DNA of 64,000 nt, from NCBI RefSeq assembly GCF_000827125.1, contig NZ_CP010311.1:3369001-3433000 (forward strand), read 5' to 3'. The notes beneath the pieces were generated by a model that did no database searches, was not told the DNA's origin, and saw only the letters and a list, made by a program, of their open reading frames with translations. Both the position numbers and the translations under genes were made by a program. The stretch is from Geoalkalibacter subterraneus (GTDB lineage: Bacteria > Desulfobacterota > Desulfuromonadia > Desulfuromonadales > Geoalkalibacteraceae). Below, piece by piece: positions 30,369 through 41,530 of this stretch (its first letter is position 1; the number at the start of each line of letters is the position of its first letter).

Positions 30369-30444
<76 letters not shown>

Positions 30445-30501: not shown

Positions 30502-30592
30502 ACGTAACAACTTACGTAACAACTTTTGATTTTCTTCTCTGTTGTAACGCGACGCTTGATTTGGCACCAATTGACGCTTGATTTGGCACCAA
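30502..30592. repeat. Prophage right-end repeats, likely transposase-binding sites
   Basis: Two tandem copies of ACGTAACAACTT (30502-30525) are followed by two 20-bp copies of GACGCTTGATTTGGCACCAA at 30551-30570 and 30573-30592, spaced 22 bp apart. That period matches the length of MuA end-binding sites. Mu-type ends start with TG; candidates are TGTTAG at 30486, TGTCTT at 30494 and TGACGT at 30500. Confidence 0.6.
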
Positions 30593-30673: not shown

Positions 30674-31717
30674 TTAAATCTCGCCTTTAAAGGCTAGCAG
30701 TTTCCCCCGCAAATTAAACGTATCGGCATGCCGCGCGTGCCCCTCCCACGATGCGATCACCGCTTCGATGTTGTCGCGCACGGGGAGGCCTTCGGCCTTT
30801 CGTCGCTGGATGCTGCGCAGTTTGCGCTTCATGCGGCGCACGCTGTCTTTTCTGAGTTTTCGGTGGGTGGGCCAGATGCGGTAGCCGAGAAAGTCGAGGG
30901 GCCTGCCGCCGCCGATGGAGACGGGGTAGACTTGCGTCTTGCCGTTGGTGCGCAGGGCGAGCGTGTCCCAGAGGAAGGCCTCGATGATTTTGCGCACGGC
31001 GTGCAGGTGGGCCTTGGCGTGGTGGATGACGCAGAAATCGTCCATGTATCTTAGATATCTGCCCTCGCGAAGCTCGTGCTTGGCGAACTGGTCGAGGTCG
31101 TGCAGGTAGACGTTGGCGAAGAGCTGGCTCGTCAGGTTGCCGATGGGGACGCCGCGCGGAAAGGGGTCGTGCGGATCGGCGGTGCTGTCGACGATCTCGT
31201 CGATGAGCCACAGGGTGTCGGCGCAGGCGATGCGCCGTCGAAGCTGCGCCTTGAGTACCTTGTGGGCGATGCTGGGGAAGTATTTGGTGATATCGGCCTT
31301 GAGCACATAGATGCAGCCGTACTCGCGCTTGACCTCGCGCATGAAGGCCTGGGCGCGGTCGGCCCCGGCGTGCGCTCCCTTGCCTGGACGGCAGGCGTAG
31401 GTATCACGGATGAAGCGATTTTCCCAGATCGGCTCGATGGCGGCGACCAGGGCGTGTTGCACAATGCGGTCTTTTAGCGGCAGGGCGGCAACGATGCGCT
31501 CCTTGGGCTCAAAGATGCGAAAGGTGCGGTATGGTCCGGTGCGGTAGCTTTTCCAGACCAGGCTGTTCTGGATCTCGATCAGGTGAGATTCCAGATTACT
31601 CTCAAAAGCCAACACATCGCCCTGCATGCGCCTGCCCCTGACAACGCGCAGCCACGCCTGGTAGAGCGACTCGAAGGTGATAATTTCCGGGAAAAGGTGC
31701 TTGTAGGTTTTTGCCAT
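30674..31717 (-). CDS. Diversity-generating retroelement reverse transcriptase
   Basis: This 347-residue enzyme copies the template-repeat RNA into adenine-mutagenised cDNA that replaces the variable repeat. The finger/palm order is intact: motif A KADITKYFPSI at 140-150, GNLTSQLF at 193-200 (the SQ form typical of DGR enzymes), the catalytic YMDD at 224-227, and the LGYRIWP segment of the thumb border. The start MAKTYKHLF has AGGA just upstream; an in-frame ATG 102 nt earlier would add 34 residues without similarity to the family. No maturase or nuclease domain is attached. It is the last gene before the phage end. Confidence 0.95.
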   Translation of the reverse strand: MAKTYKHLFPEIITFESLYQAWLRVVRGRRMQGDVLAFESNLESHLIEIQNSLVWKSYRTGPYRTFRIFEPKERIVAALPLKDRIVQHALVAAIEPIWENRFIRDTYACRPGKGAHAGADRAQAFMREVKREYGCIYVLKADITKYFPSIAHKVLKAQLRRRIACADTLWLIDEIVDSTADPHDPFPRGVPIGNLTSQLFANVYLHDLDQFAKHELREGRYLRYMDDFCVIHHAKAHLHAVRKIIEAFLWDTLALRTNGKTQVYPVSIGGGRPLDFLGYRIWPTHRKLRKDSVRRMKRKLRSIQRRKAEGLPVRDNIEAVIASWEGHARHADTFNLRGKLLAFKGEI

Positions 31718-31879
31718 TCCTGGCGGCCCTTTATTTGCGGCCAGGGCGAAGGGTCTCCCTTTGGGATACTGTCTCGCCCTGGCCTGTTCATGTTTTTCGG
31801 CGCTTGGCCGAGGGGTCACGGGTCCTTTCGAAAGTGCGCTGGACGGTGCCCCTTAAGGCGCCGACTTCTGGCTATCTTC

Positions 31880-32001
31880 GAGAGCGGGGCGGAACCCGAT
31901 GTTCGTGTTCGCGTTCGAACGCTCATTGTTCAGGTTCAGGGCGAAAGACCCGGCATTCGCACCATTGTTCCAGTTGCCGCCACGGATCGGCAGACGCTCA
32001 C
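31880..32001 (-). repeat. DGR template repeat (TR)
   Basis: This 122-nt repeat matches 32428-32549 except at 14 positions within the repeat and one near its 3' edge. Every internal difference is an A on the coding (minus) strand of this copy. As translated it would encode RGGNWNNGANAG and NLNNERSNANTNIG, that is, Asn codons (AAC/AAT) at each variable site, the normal design of a TR. It lies between avd and the reverse transcriptase gene and overlaps the avd stop codon by 4 nt. Confidence 0.95.
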
Positions 32002-32366
32002 GCCTCATGTTTACCCGCGCCCCTGTTGGTGCTTTTAAACCAACCTCCCACCATGCGGCCGACTTCGTCGAGCAGGCGGCTCCAGACCTCGTACTTCTTG
32101 AACGGGAGATATTCAAGCTGCATTGCCACCCTCACCTGCGAGCGCAGCAGGTCGAGTTCGGCGTCGAGGTCCTGCATGGTGGTCTTTTTGTAGTAGCGAC
32201 GATTGCAGATAATGATCAGGCGCAAAAGGCTCCACATACTCTGACGGATTTCCTGCGACAGCACGTGCCGCTCGGCCTTAGGAAACTGCCGAAGCGCCCC
32301 ATACCCGTAGGTGATCATGTCTTCGCACTTACGCCGGATCTTCAAGTCGTCCACAAAAACCCTCAT
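31998..32366 (-). CDS. avd: DGR accessory variability determinant (Avd)
   Basis: This 122-residue protein is predicted all-helical and basic, as in Avd four-helix bundles that form a pentameric barrel, bind the reverse transcriptase and are needed for cDNA synthesis. It includes YGYGALRQFPKAERHVLSQEIR, which is characteristic of the four-helix-bundle family, and RSQVRVAMQLEYLPFKKYEVW. ATG at 32366 is taken as the start; a TTG four codons earlier is possible. It lies between target gene and TR. Confidence 0.9.
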   Translation of the reverse strand: MRVFVDDLKIRRKCEDMITYGYGALRQFPKAERHVLSQEIRQSMWSLLRLIIICNRRYYKKTTMQDLDAELDLLRSQVRVAMQLEYLPFKKYEVWSRLLDEVGRMVGGWFKSTNRGAGKHEA

Positions 32367-32378
32367 CAAAAAGGGCAA

Positions 32379-32396
32379 GGCGGGCTATCGCCCGCC
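32379..32396. other. DGR target-recognition hairpin (cruciform)
   Basis: GGCGGGC-GATA-GCCCGCC on the coding strand is a perfect 7-bp stem with a GATA loop, 31 nt past the end of the variable repeat. GC-rich hairpins with GRNA loops in this position are known to mark the DGR homing site in Bordetella phage and others, and GATA fits GRNA. It could also act as a weak terminator for the target gene. Confidence 0.75.
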
Positions 32397-32418
32397 CCAC
32401 CAGAACACAGAAAACAGA

Positions 32419-33477
32419 TTACAGAACGAAAGCGGGGCGGAACCCGAGGAGCGTGAGCGCGAGCGAACGCTCATAGCTCAGGTTCAGGGCGAAAGACCCG
32501 GCAAGCGCACCATTGTGCCAGCTGCCGCCACGGAGCGGCAGACGCTCACCAGCGTTGTTGACGTAGAGGTTGCCCCGCGCCATGTCGGTGGCGTGGGGGA
32601 AGAGGCCGAGGGCCTTGGTGAGATCGGGGGCCGCCGTCCCGGCAGCAGCAAGAACGTCCTTGTATTGCGTATTTACGCTTGCCGTAGCTGTAACCACCTT
32701 GGCGAGCTTGACGCCGCTGTCGGAGTTGTATTTCAGGGTGTTGGCCGTCCCCGGCGCCACTAGGGTGCCGTCTTCCAGGATCGCCTGCCAGGCGCTCGAC
32801 CCTGCAGCAGTGCTCAGGGTGTTGTCGGCAGCGTTGTTGTCGGCGATCACCTGAATCTCGCCGTCCACCAAACGCATGCCGCGCTGCCACTCCCATACGT
32901 TTCCGACCAGGTCGGCGATGCCGCTTGGCTCGCCGTTGTGCCGCCACGATGCGGGGCCTGCGCCGGTCAGGGTGCGGGCAGTACCGGAGGCGAGACCGGG
33001 GTTGGCGCCGTCCTGCCGGGGGGCGGTTTCAAAGGTGGCGACGTAGTCGCGCCCATAGTTGGTGTTGCCACGTATTGTGTCAGGCCCGAACTGCTTGTGG
33101 GTGAGCAGGGCAATGGCGGCCCATTCAGCATTGGTCATCAGATGCCAGCCGGCCCCCTTGATGCTGCAGCGCGCGTCCGCCGTATCAAAATCGATGCTCG
33201 CCGCTGGATCGCGGCCGGGGAGCGACAGGGCGCGGCTGTCGTGAATGACGGCCGGATACTGCCCGACCCAGATCTCGCTCTTAGTCGTTCCGTTGACGAT
33301 AAAGGCCGGGTGTGGCACAGCGGCCCAGGAGGGGTCGATGGTGTCGAGGGTGAACATGGGGATACGACACATGTGGCTCGGGTACCCCTTGTCGTCATAC
33401 ATGACGGTGACCTGGCCGCCGGTGGCGGCTTCGACGGATTGGCGCAGGGAGTCCTTAATGCTGATGATCATACTCAT
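32419..33477 (-). CDS. DGR target protein, formylglycine-generating-enzyme/C-type lectin fold
   Basis: This 352-residue protein ends in a diversified C-type-lectin-like domain. The middle shows FGE/sulfatase-modifying-factor marks (GAGWHLMTNAEWAAIALLT and IADLVGNVWEWQRGM), and the C-terminus holds the variable stretch from residue 312 (RGGSWHNGALAGSF, NLSYERS, LGFRPAF). Ten residues differ from the template: 315, 319, 321, 325, 334, 335, 339, 341, 343 and 344. It follows the tail-fibre genes, so a receptor-binding or adhesin role on the virion is inferred, as for Mtd of Bordetella phage. Confidence 0.93.
   Translation of the reverse strand: MSMIISIKDSLRQSVEAATGGQVTVMYDDKGYPSHMCRIPMFTLDTIDPSWAAVPHPAFIVNGTTKSEIWVGQYPAVIHDSRALSLPGRDPAASIDFDTADARCSIKGAGWHLMTNAEWAAIALLTHKQFGPDTIRGNTNYGRDYVATFETAPRQDGANPGLASGTARTLTGAGPASWRHNGEPSGIADLVGNVWEWQRGMRLVDGEIQVIADNNAADNTLSTAAGSSAWQAILEDGTLVAPGTANTLKYNSDSGVKLAKVVTATASVNTQYKDVLAAAGTAAPDLTKALGLFPHATDMARGNLYVNNAGERLPLRGGSWHNGALAGSFALNLSYERSLALTLLGFRPAFVL
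32428..32549 (-). repeat. DGR variable repeat (VR) with IMH at its 3' end
   Basis: This is the 122-nt copy of the template at the 3' end of the target gene. Substitutions are A to C, G or T on the coding strand, often two per Asn codon (AAC to CTC in three codons). The last 15 nt before the edge, GGGTTCCGCCCCGCT, are identical and GC-only-rich as expected for the initiation-of-mutagenic-homing site. Just beyond it VR reads TTC and TR reads CTC. Confidence 0.95.
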
Positions 33478-39015: not shown

Positions 39016-41530
39016 AGAGCGCCCCCCGCTGACGTGCCGCCTGGCTGCGCTCCCGCTCTTTAAGTTGGCGCTCAACCTCGGCGGCGATCTCTTTAGCGTC
39101 CATGCCGGGGGTGGCGTTGATGACGATCTCGTAGCGCTCGTTGTGGTTGATCACCTGTTCCCGCGCCTGAGTTGTTGGGGCAATAGTCGCTGCAAGCCTG
39201 GCGTCGGCAGCGGACTGCTGCTGTTCGTGTCTCCCGCCCCGAGCGTCAACCATGGCCAGACCTTGGGTTTCGGGCAGCTCGACCGGCTGAACAACGGGAC
39301 TGACGCTGGCAAAGCCTTGGGTTTCGGGCAGCTCGACCGGCTGAACAACGGGACTGACGCTGGCAAAGCCTTGGGTTTCGGGCAGCTCGACCGGCTGAAC
39401 AACGGGACTGACGCTGGCAAAGCCTTGGGTTTCGTGGACTTCTGGTGGTGCAGCAGCGACCGGAGCGGCGAGGTTTGCGCCCAGGGCGACGGTGGCAGCG
39501 GCTTTGCGAGTGCGCCCGAAAAAACGGCGCTTTTCTTTTTCCGGCTCGGCGCTTGATTCTGGCTCCTGGTCGTCTTTTTTGCCGCCGAACAGGTCACCAA
39601 CAAACCCGGTCAGTTTTTCGCCTGCCTTAAAAAGCAGCCCCAGGGGCGACTTTTCCCAGATGCTGATCAAAAAACCGACGCCATCTTTAAACAGGGATTT
39701 AATGCCGTCCCAAAGACCGCTAAAAAAGCCCTTGATCGGCTCCCAATACGCAATCACCAGGCCCGCAGCCAGGGCAATACCGGCTATTGCCAGGCCGATG
39801 GGGTTGCTCATCACCGCCAACCCCATCACCCGAAAGCCGGTGGCAATAGCGGTAGTCGCTGTGGTGACTATCGCGCTGCCAATCGCCCAGGCCTTTTGAG
39901 CGGCAGCCAGGCCCCAGGTTTTCAGGGTCGCAAAATGCAGCGACTTTCCCACCCAGGCCATTGCCAGAGCGACCTTGGGGGACGCCGCCAGCGTGGCGTA
40001 GTAAGCGGCCTGCATACCAAGCCAGCCGCCCTTAAGCCATAAAACCCCGACGGTTAGCGCCTTGGCGGCGGCCAGCACCCCGATAAGCCCAACCACCAGC
40101 CCCACCGTTGTACCGGTGGTGCGGGGGAATTTCTCGCTAAGCCACTGCAGACCGAGCGCGACCTTGCCGATCGCACCGGCCACCGCCTCCGCTGCCGGAT
40201 AGAGAGTTGTGCCGACGGTCGCTGACAGATTCTGCATCTGCTGGCCCAGTAACTCAAAGCCCCGGCCGCGCTGCATGCGCTTGGCCATTTCTTCGGTCTT
40301 TTCCAGACCACCGGTCAGTGACTTTTCAATTTCTGCCGCGCCGTCACGCAAGGCGCCGCGCCGAGCCAGGAGCAAATCAACCAGCTCCGTGGCTTCCTTG
40401 GTGCCAAAAGCCGCGCGCAGGTCATCCTTGGCGGCCTGGTCCATCACGCCACCGTAGGCGTCGTTGATTTGGTCGAGGATTTCAGGCACCGACTTGAGCA
40501 TGCCGGTCTGCTCGTTAACAAAATCAAGGCCGAGCTTTTCCCCGGCGCCACTGGCCGAGGCCAGAAACGCGTTGAATTTGGTTGCCGCCTCACTGCCGCT
40601 CATGGTGCGCTGTAACTCACCCAGCACCGCCAGTTGCTCGGAAAACGCATAGCCTGCGGTGGTCGCGGTCGCTCCCAGGCTTGAGAGCGCCTGGCTCATC
40701 TGTGCGCCGTCGGTCCGAAAGGCCTGGACGCTGGCAGAGATCCCGGCTGAAAAGTATTTACCGAACTCAATGTCGCGCTCTTCCGCCGACAGCGACTGCC
40801 AGCCGGTGATCACCTGCTCGCCAAAACTGTTGAACTGATCGCGATAAATGCCGTAGCCCTTGGCGAACAGGTTGGTCATTTCCGCCGTGGTGCTTTTGGT
40901 TGCTGCTGCGGTTAACGCCGCGATACGGGTGAACTCCCCTACCGCCACATCGCCCAGGCTTGAAATACCGCTCTTAACGTCGTAGCTGGCGCGGACAAAG
41001 TCGCTGACACTGGTGCCCGCCCAGGCATTGGAAAACGCCTCGCCAACACGGGTGATGCTGTCGATCCCGGAATCATCAATCCCCAGTGAGGCAATTTCGC
41101 CCTGTGCCTTCAAGACGTCGCCGCGCGCACTGACCAGCTTGCCGATGGAATACATGGACGCGGCAATGCCCACCAGCGAAGAGCGCGCCTCGCCCAGCGC
41201 TTGACGGTTGGCGTCGATCTTGATGCGCACGCTCGATTGCTTTTTCAAGTTGAGCAGGGTAGAATTAAGCCTGCGGCTGGAGGTATCCAGATCCCGCACG
41301 TCCACCCCGGCGCGCTGCAACGACGCCGCCAGCTCACGCAGGCGGGCGCTGTTGCCTTGGGCGTCTTTTGATAATTTTTTAAACTCGGCAATTTCCAGCT
41401 TGGTGCCGTTCAGCCCATCAATCGCGGCACTGATCTGCTCAAGCGAGCGATAAGCCCCGCCCATCGCTGCCGAATAGGAGGAGCCCAGTGTCGCGCCGAT
41501 CGTTAAACCAATCGCCAGGCTTTTACTCAT
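39008..41530 (-). CDS. Tail tape measure protein
   Basis: This 840-residue protein sets tail length. It has a coiled-coil N-terminus, the TP901-type core (VREAFSNAWAG-like GEAFSNAWAGTSVSDFVRAS, LGATATTAGYAFSEQLAVLGELQ, LRAAFGTKEATELVDLL), and several hydrophobic segments near 480-600 (VGLVVGLIGVLAAAKAL, PIGLAIAGIALAAGLVIAYW). Three 18-residue repeats (PVVQPVELPETQGFASVS) lie near the C-terminus. Confidence 0.93.
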   Translation of the reverse strand: MSKSLAIGLTIGATLGSSYSAAMGGAYRSLEQISAAIDGLNGTKLEIAEFKKLSKDAQGNSARLRELAASLQRAGVDVRDLDTSSRRLNSTLLNLKKQSSVRIKIDANRQALGEARSSLVGIAASMYSIGKLVSARGDVLKAQGEIASLGIDDSGIDSITRVGEAFSNAWAGTSVSDFVRASYDVKSGISSLGDVAVGEFTRIAALTAAATKSTTAEMTNLFAKGYGIYRDQFNSFGEQVITGWQSLSAEERDIEFGKYFSAGISASVQAFRTDGAQMSQALSSLGATATTAGYAFSEQLAVLGELQRTMSGSEAATKFNAFLASASGAGEKLGLDFVNEQTGMLKSVPEILDQINDAYGGVMDQAAKDDLRAAFGTKEATELVDLLLARRGALRDGAAEIEKSLTGGLEKTEEMAKRMQRGRGFELLGQQMQNLSATVGTTLYPAAEAVAGAIGKVALGLQWLSEKFPRTTGTTVGLVVGLIGVLAAAKALTVGVLWLKGGWLGMQAAYYATLAASPKVALAMAWVGKSLHFATLKTWGLAAAQKAWAIGSAIVTTATTAIATGFRVMGLAVMSNPIGLAIAGIALAAGLVIAYWEPIKGFFSGLWDGIKSLFKDGVGFLISIWEKSPLGLLFKAGEKLTGFVGDLFGGKKDDQEPESSAEPEKEKRRFFGRTRKAAATVALGANLAAPVAAAPPEVHETQGFASVSPVVQPVELPETQGFASVSPVVQPVELPETQGFASVSPVVQPVELPETQGLAMVDARGGRHEQQQSAADARLAATIAPTTQAREQVINHNERYEIVINATPGMDAKEIAAEVERQLKERERSQAARQRGALYD
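39261..39436. repeat. 54-bp tandem repeats inside the tape measure gene
   Basis: Three perfect 54-bp copies (39261-39314, 39315-39368, 39369-39422) plus a partial fourth encode an 18-residue Pro/Val/Gln-rich unit. The copies are identical at DNA level, which implies recent expansion and length instability. Confidence 0.92.

Follow-up and report, generated by a model that had tools for sequence, protein, structure and literature searches.

A periodic array of YTG units, placed between the variable repeat (VR) and a GC-rich hairpin and missing behind the template repeat (TR), very likely has a function within the target site of DGRs, as judged by comparison of sequences. The array was found in the window, by which the whole 64-kb stretch of DNA analysed is meant, and it is practically certain that a DGR uses the segment described here as its DNA target. 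The same order and register of parts is observed in the window and in its relatives: a GC-rich segment that TR and VR have in common, YTG units present on the VR side only and following each other in 7-8-nt steps, and a GC-rich hairpin whose GRNA loop is closed by a C-G pair. No description of an array between VR and hairpin was found in the running text of the openly accessible papers that the search covered; as far as this literature goes, the YTG units spaced every 7-8 nt appear to be new.

A complete DGR, with target gene, Avd, TR and reverse transcriptase (RT) all present, is located on the minus strand of the window, and its frames and motifs are intact at the sequence level. The genes are the following:

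32419..33477, minus strand: DGR target gene, 352 aa, variable C-terminal region (weak FGE-sulfatase match, 4.9e-5)
31998..32366, minus strand: avd (accessory variability determinant), 122 aa (Pfam bAvd, 5.5e-33; PHROG 'Avd protein of DGR', 3.9e-44)
30674..31819, minus strand: DGR reverse transcriptase, open frame from a GTG at 31819
30369..30444, plus strand: tRNA-Phe beside the RT gene (ARAGORN)

The target gene product matches phrog_2889 (3.8e-128) and PDB chain 5vf4_A (7.5e-104, best stretch residues 2-253), a Thermus DGR variable protein; the likeness to this chain is strong despite the distant hosts. The VR occupies the 3' end of this receptor-like gene up to the stop codon, and tail fibre, baseplate and tape-measure genes are found upstream of the DGR. 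The RT matches RVT_1 (5.1e-16), phrog_1423 (2.2e-140) and PDB chain 8ub7_A (8.3e-66), and in the RT tree it falls among DGR RTs having TR/VR pairs; its start is likely the ATG at 31717, because most relatives align from about residue 35. The genome of the window contains one close RT copy, and a second, distant RT match lies on the other contig (G000:C2:82123-82578). A weak bAvd-like frame was also noticed elsewhere in the genome (G000:C1:976779-977102).

The repeats and the elements next to them are listed below.

31879..32001, minus strand: TR, its last bases (31882-31879) within IMH*
32427..32549, minus strand: VR, repeat of the TR at an offset of 548
32431..32447, minus strand: 17-nt GC-rich 3' end of the VR, equal to the TR (IMH core), TCGGGTTCCGCCCCGCT, by alignment
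32430..32430, minus strand: single IMH/IMH* difference, T in the VR and C in the TR (31882), by alignment
32397..32430, minus strand: YTG array between VR core and hairpin, four CTG in 7-nt steps
32379..32396, minus strand: highly probable homing hairpin, GGCGGGC-GATA-GCCCGCC, perfect 7-bp stem, all G/C, GATA loop

TR and VR differ at 14 positions of a 119-nt ungapped core, all of them (14/14) TR adenines, with no other mismatch. According to the initial annotation the last 15 nt of the VR equal the TR; an identical run is indeed present, but its length is 17 nt (32447..32431). The one-base difference between IMH and IMH*, also proposed there, was found again directly behind this run (32430 versus 31882); past it, TCG is common to TR and VR, and then the similarity ends. 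As C in the TR and T in the VR immediately follow the shared core in 53/72 clusters of the window's RT group (see below), the difference is a conserved feature and no accident. This lone base is, however, not all that sets the VR apart from the TR, since the VR-specific YTG array, overlooked in the initial annotation, is probably the larger part of the distinction. The shared segment TCGGGTTCCGCCCCGCT is GC-rich and not GC-only, so that a 14-bp GC-only segment of the BPP-1 type is not found here.

The perfect 7-bp stem with a GATA loop past the VR was confirmed at 32396..32379, and G-T pairs can lengthen the stem to 32374-32401. Its distance from the VR, previously given as 31 nt, was measured as 30 nt when counted from the last shared base (32427), or 34 nt from the end of the 17-nt run (32431). 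Eight perfect hairpins with a stem of at least 7 bp and a 4-nt loop occur on either strand of the 64-kb window, and among them only 32379..32396 has a GRNA loop on the coding strand of the target. When the 61 nt around the hairpin were folded as DNA, an energy of -11.8 kcal/mol was obtained (z -4.6), with 0/200 shuffles as good. The text sections covered of Guo 2011 describe the hairpins of phage DGRs shown in its Figure 5 (VHML, BPP-1 and others) as having stems of 7-10 bp and GRNA loops, 4-34 bp from the VR (PMC3240598). The window hairpin agrees with each rule stated there: its stem is GC-rich and within 7-10 bp, its 4-nt loop reads GRNA on the coding strand, and its distance from the VR falls within 4-34 bp; VHML corresponds to L066 of the present survey. 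The segment 32379..32396 is taken with high confidence to be the DGR homing hairpin, and its type is already known, being the same as that of the hairpin needed by BPP-1 homing.

Between VR core and hairpin, CTG is found on the minus strand at 32424-32422, 32417-32415, 32410-32408 and 32403-32401, with an exact 7-nt spacing. The array reads TTCGTT-CTG-TAAT-CTG-TTTT-CTG-TGTT-CTG-GTGG and is followed by the stem. The stop codon of the target gene (32421-32419) is contained within the array, and three of the four units lie past it. A chain of at least 4 units is reached by 0.4% of dinucleotide shuffles of this 34-nt stretch.

For the survey of relatives, loci were gathered by RT searches from IMG/VR, GTDB contigs and named phages, and scanned for TR/VR pairs with adenine-specific mismatches. 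Pairs were identified in 168/228 sequences and gave, after drops, 175 VRs grouped into 136 clusters; the 60/228 sequences with no TR/VR pair enter no count. Pairs scoring below 50, the window's own copy (L001) and the pairs with reversed assignment in L184, L193 and L225 were dropped before counting, as was an additional pair of L225. The group labels A1-A4 refer to the RT query that fetched the loci, and A1 is not one clade on the tree.

A hairpin with a 4-nt loop and a stem of at least 5 bp, within the 70 nt that follow the VR, was found in 92/136 clusters; the loop is GRNA in 87/92 and the closing pair C-G in 89/92. Hairpins were present in 17/136 of the equal stretches after the TR, in 7/132 of those before the VR and in 14/136 of those 301-370 nt downstream, with 0 GRNA loops in each of these controls, while shuffles gave means of 8.0 hairpins and 0.28 GRNA loops. 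With G-T pairs and single mismatches allowed, the hairpin is found in 61/72 clusters of the window's group, 41/53 of the BPP-1 group and 0/11 of the others. In the 87 GRNA hairpins the loop-adjacent pair is C-G in 85 and the next pair G-C in 78, the outer pairs being variable, and the third loop base is T in 46, A in 23, C in 15 and G in 3 (pyrimidine in 61/87). A pyrimidine at this place breaks the RNA GNRA rule and fits the stable DNA loop class cGNNAg. Hairpin and position are kept across relatives that otherwise share little sequence there; the nearest ones, L012 and L013 (83 and 87% RT identity), keep both loop and position with only 5 perfect pairs. The comparison with related elements, suggested as a test together with the initial annotation, therefore revealed a hairpin that is neither missing nor freely varying, with variable stems and a fixed loop and C-G closing pair, and the GRNA loop rule invoked there for target recognition holds for these 87 of 92 loops. 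The GRNA hairpin is not universal, being mostly absent in the Magia-like, Bacteroides-like and 'other' groups.

Some loci carry other forms of the hairpin. In the Firmicute-type DGRs L069 and L146 a normal CTG array is followed, at 42-45 nt from the VR core, by hairpins with 7-nt loops (CCACCAA / CACCAAA) instead of GRNA loops, possibly a second loop class. In L086, L099, L158, L222, L225 and L226 the VR is followed by a GRNA loop on a stem that is interrupted, between C-G pairs, by purine-purine mismatches of the tandem G-A type; these hairpins are missed by the exact-stem test. In some A4 (Magia-like) loci, among them L336, L364, L365, L372 and L376, C-G closed loops of 3 nt (GCA, GTA or ATA) are found. 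They are resembled by the GRA loops of nanoarchaeal DGR hairpins, which, in the parts covered of Paul et al. 2015 (PMC4372165), are like the hairpin of the window in showing a short G..A loop near the VR, and differ from it in the 3-nt length of the loop and the location inside coding sequence.

Among 61 spacers of the window's group, TG pairs at lag 7 number 140, versus 32.8 in shuffles (z 23.9) and 4 after the TR, a z-score which, like those reported below, overstates independence, as clusters are related by descent; the array effect persists under strict deduplication. More peaks are seen at lags 14/15 and 21/22, with depletion at most other lags. YTG chains of at least 4 units at 7/8-nt steps are present in 43/72 clusters of the group (4 units in 19, 5 in 23 and 6 in 1), compared with 0/72 after the TR and about 0.2/72 in shuffles. 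Under the strictest deduplication (spacers sharing <12% of 6-mers, n=22) chains of at least 4 were retained in 11/22, versus 0.18 expected, and in this set other step sizes, from 3/4 to 13/14, gave 0 chains, save 6/7, which shares the 7. The last unit usually begins 5-7 nt before the stem, earlier peaks being near -13, -20, -27 and -33; array and hairpin are thus in register. Each unit is composed of (T)YTG followed by variable, A/T-leaning letters, a profile that informs on the fill letters only, as units were picked by YTG.

The target site of BPP-1, formed by (GC)14, a 21-bp IMH segment and a hairpin, offers a functional reference. In the text sections covered of Guo 2011, the GC segment is the point at which the cDNA is joined, the hairpin is needed for efficient homing, a requirement shown for BPP-1 only, and the 21-bp IMH segment, with 5 mismatches to the TR, 'determines the directionality' (PMC3240598). 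This 21-bp element holds YTG units: when IMH (CTGTGACCACCTGATTCTTG) is compared with IMH* (CTGTGCCCATCACCTTCTTG), the middle CTG is changed to CAC in the TR, which breaks the middle YTG. The VR side reads ...CTGTGACCACCTGATTCTTGAGTAG followed by the hairpin, and the TR side ...CTGTGCCCATCACCTTCTTG. In 41 clusters of the BPP-1 group, TG pairs at lag 7 number 38 versus 7.7 (z 11.4), with 1 after the TR. In this group the hairpin is closer to the core, at a distance of mostly 13-23 nt, the units number 2-3, and the array is singly detectable in only 6/53 clusters. BPP-1 and the window are alike in the order of parts, in the C-G-closed GRNA loop (GAAA in BPP-1, GATA in the window), in a direction signal present on the VR side only, and in Avd and RT proteins of the same families. 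They differ in the gap between core and hairpin, which spans 34 nt and holds 4 clear YTG units in the window, against 19 nt and 2-3 units in BPP-1, and in the end of TR/VR homology, which precedes the array in the window and falls within it in BPP-1.

According to the same sections, the VR of BPP-1 mtd is inactivated by synonymous IMH changes, which is what a DNA-level element predicts, and the target works in either orientation; a 3-bp insertion in the spacer is tolerated, while with insertions of 6 and 15 bp homing declines gradually and shows no steps of 7 (PMC3240598). In E. coli, homing is not abolished by removal of the hairpin (PMC12875486).

Two further scans, together with six phage records and a bAvd scan, supplied 278 more VRs in 194 clusters, again leaving out pairs scoring below 50 or with too little flank; the 41/193 loci of this set in which no TR/VR pair was found enter no count. 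The bAvd scan, run on 297 genomes of the phylum, yielded few DGRs, with TR/VR pairs in 4/27 scanned loci (L394-L420). Magia-like DGRs, which belong to a different RT clade (81 clusters), show 8-nt units built around ATTY/TTYA; at lags 8 and 16 their self-match is 0.46 and 0.39, respectively (z 21 and 10.8), with none after the TR. Chains of at least 3 [ACT]TT[CTG], a motif widened after viewing the data, are present in 65/81 clusters versus 5.2 in shuffles and 2 after the TR; the narrower motifs TTYA and ATTY gave 18/81 versus 0.3 and 26/81 versus 0.9, respectively. These DGRs are mostly devoid of the hairpin and, within the window's own group, L108, L113 and L134 have an array and no hairpin, so that array and hairpin are separable. 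In Bacteroides-like DGRs (102 clusters) the array signal is weak, and more coding sequence follows the VRs.

Periodicity was also evaluated by a motif-free test on single sequences, at p 0.05. In the window's group, positives are 45/70 with Avd and 1/2 without; they are 60/81 in Magia-like DGRs, 6/53 in the BPP-1 group and 12/102 in Bacteroides-like DGRs, and among other DGRs 4/6 with Avd and 0/5 without, counts that may all shift by one or two on repeat, according to the shuffle seed. The extra phage records gave 2/4 with Avd and 2/3 without, and the loci from the bAvd scan 1/4, whereas TR tails were positive in 4/70, 2/81, 2/53 and 7/102 clusters of the window, Magia-like, BPP-1 and Bacteroides-like groups.

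By a model built here, Avd was found in 95/105, 77/81 and 75/80 loci of the three array-bearing groups, and in 0/80 Bacteroides-like loci. On the RT tree arrays occur on several branches, while most Avd-less loci belong to one nested clade; array and Avd therefore co-occur, but through few independent events. The link is also confounded, because the lone large Avd-less clade has its VRs inside coding sequence as well. The array travels with the VR, that is with the target, and not with avd: in Magia-like DGRs it is detected at 29/43 VRs far from avd and 31/38 next to it, YTG chains of at least 2 are found at 6/6 VRs of the BPP-1 group far from avd, and L004 has an array at a VR with avd 4.6 kb away.

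A GC-rich stem behind a gene may also be an intrinsic transcription terminator, here of the target gene, with a coincidental or secondary role in the DGR. In the window CTTTTTG comes after the G-T-extended stem (32401-32374), which is on the terminator scan list, and the nearest relatives, L012 and L013, have CTTTT at the same place; over the survey, however, a T run of at least 4 follows the stem in 9/87 clusters, and at least 5 T within 8 nt are found in 11/87. A terminator needs no loop sequence, yet 87/92 loops are GRNA, with a third base (T or C in 61/87) against the RNA GNRA rule, and a strong stop at the hairpin would sever avd and RT from the transcript of the target. This explanation is improbable; termination as the general role of the hairpin was rejected on the few T runs and the fixed loop, and a side role may remain in the window.

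The array itself could act at the RNA level, for example in the translation of avd, which lies downstream, or in its coupling, and the location of the array in the window, between the target stop codon and an avd start 12 nt past the hairpin, would suit such a role, which is nevertheless highly improbable in view of the arrays at VRs apart from avd (29/43 Magia-like, 6/6 BPP-1 group, L004) and of the BPP-1 target functioning in either orientation (PMC3240598, sections covered). A function as avd leader was rejected, since VRs at a distance from avd also carry the array. The RTs of DGRs are related to those of group II introns, whose choice of target is largely made by RNA-DNA pairing, and the array might pair with the DGR RNA as exon-binding sites do. 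Over 61 loci, however, the best complementarity between array and own spacer RNA is 6.79, versus 6.74 for the RNA of other loci, the corresponding values being 5.69 versus 5.67 for the TR and 6.49 versus 6.44 for the upstream region, and the BPP-1 group (41 loci) behaves likewise. With no excess over swapped loci, RNA-DNA pairing of the array was discarded and has next to no likelihood; counts of YTG and CAG in the spacer RNA that follows the TR likewise show no comparable peak at 7. Finally, short tandem repeats are easily produced by slippage, and the array could be a neutral duplication or a codon effect near gene ends. There is very little likelihood of this, as YTG is kept while the fill letters vary, spacing is held at 7-8, clades differ in unit sequence yet have nearly the same step, the TR tails of the same loci have no array, and in the window three of four units are beyond the stop codon.

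We consider it very likely that GC segment, array and hairpin together form the DGR target site, the array presumably being read by a ribonucleoprotein. In this view the array is a general element, of which the 21-bp segment of BPP-1 would be a variant. On the target DNA the array would be recognized by the DGR ribonucleoprotein (RT-Avd-RNA), with Avd as the most likely point of contact, the hairpin would hold the site open or dock the complex, and the mutagenized cDNA would then be joined at the GC segment. Having neither array nor hairpin, the TR would act as donor only; being outside the copied part, array and hairpin would be kept through each round. By elimination, the reader of the array should be a protein or ribonucleoprotein recognizing DNA. 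Avd is the tentatively favoured candidate, since at the level of clades its presence coincides with that of arrays, and since it is a pentamer in BPP-1. It is doubtful that the Avd ring reads the array ring by ring. Equally speculative is a general target code shared by Avd-bearing DGRs, in which an array with 7-8-nt steps and clade-specific units (YTG-N4/5, or 8-nt ATTY/TTYA) would be read by the Avd ring on single-stranded or opened DNA, up to one unit per protomer, and the array, not TR/VR homology, would set the gene diversified. Chains of 4 and of 5 units are the commonest in the window's group, where a single one of 6 occurs, which bears on this idea; one unit per Avd protomer as a strict rule found no support, given 2-3 units in the BPP-1 group and one cluster with 6. 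The gradual effect of insertions in BPP-1, the varying unit number and the occurrence of array and hairpin apart all argue against a rigid reading model.

A comparable principle is known from TRAP, a ring protein that reads triplets at constant spacing on RNA, in 11 repeats; the likeness is conceptual only, as the array would be read as DNA and Avd is a putative reader. Group IIC introns inserting at terminator hairpins are similar in that a related RT targets DNA beside a GC-rich stem-loop, but there the loop sequence hardly matters, whereas in DGRs it is fixed (PMC3240598, sections covered). The text sections covered of Guo 2011 call the VR-hairpin distance 'quite flexible' and do not describe periodic units (PMC3240598).

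The homing step is still called incompletely understood in PMC12875486 (2026), and the array bears on how a DGR separates the recipient gene from a near-identical template and on what protein or RNA touches the target. It may supply the part so far lacking from the address label that the DGR machinery reads. As a VR-only periodic element that overlaps the direction-setting 21 bp of BPP-1 and recurs in several RT clades, it opens the nature of the IMH direction signal to testing. It could also serve to find DGR targets with no RT nearby, and provide a rule for building targets in directed evolution. If the general array code is true, DGRs would be retargetable by moving the array.

Further features were noticed around the DGR. 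The stretch between TR and RT (31740-31882, minus strand) contains blocks strongly conserved in the window's group, GCCAGAAG, CAAAAGGA, CCTCGGCC..GCCGAAA and AACAGGC, which may correspond to a structured DGR RNA. The tRNA-Phe is a plausible candidate for the prophage attachment site. About 110 nt past it, at 30551-30592, two perfect 20-nt direct repeats (GACGCTTGATTTGGCACCAA) with 22-nt spacing are found, perhaps an att or integrase-arm site. The tape-measure gene contains, at 39150-39300, a tandem amino-acid repeat, LPETQGFASVSPVVQPVE-like, in about three copies plus a partial one.
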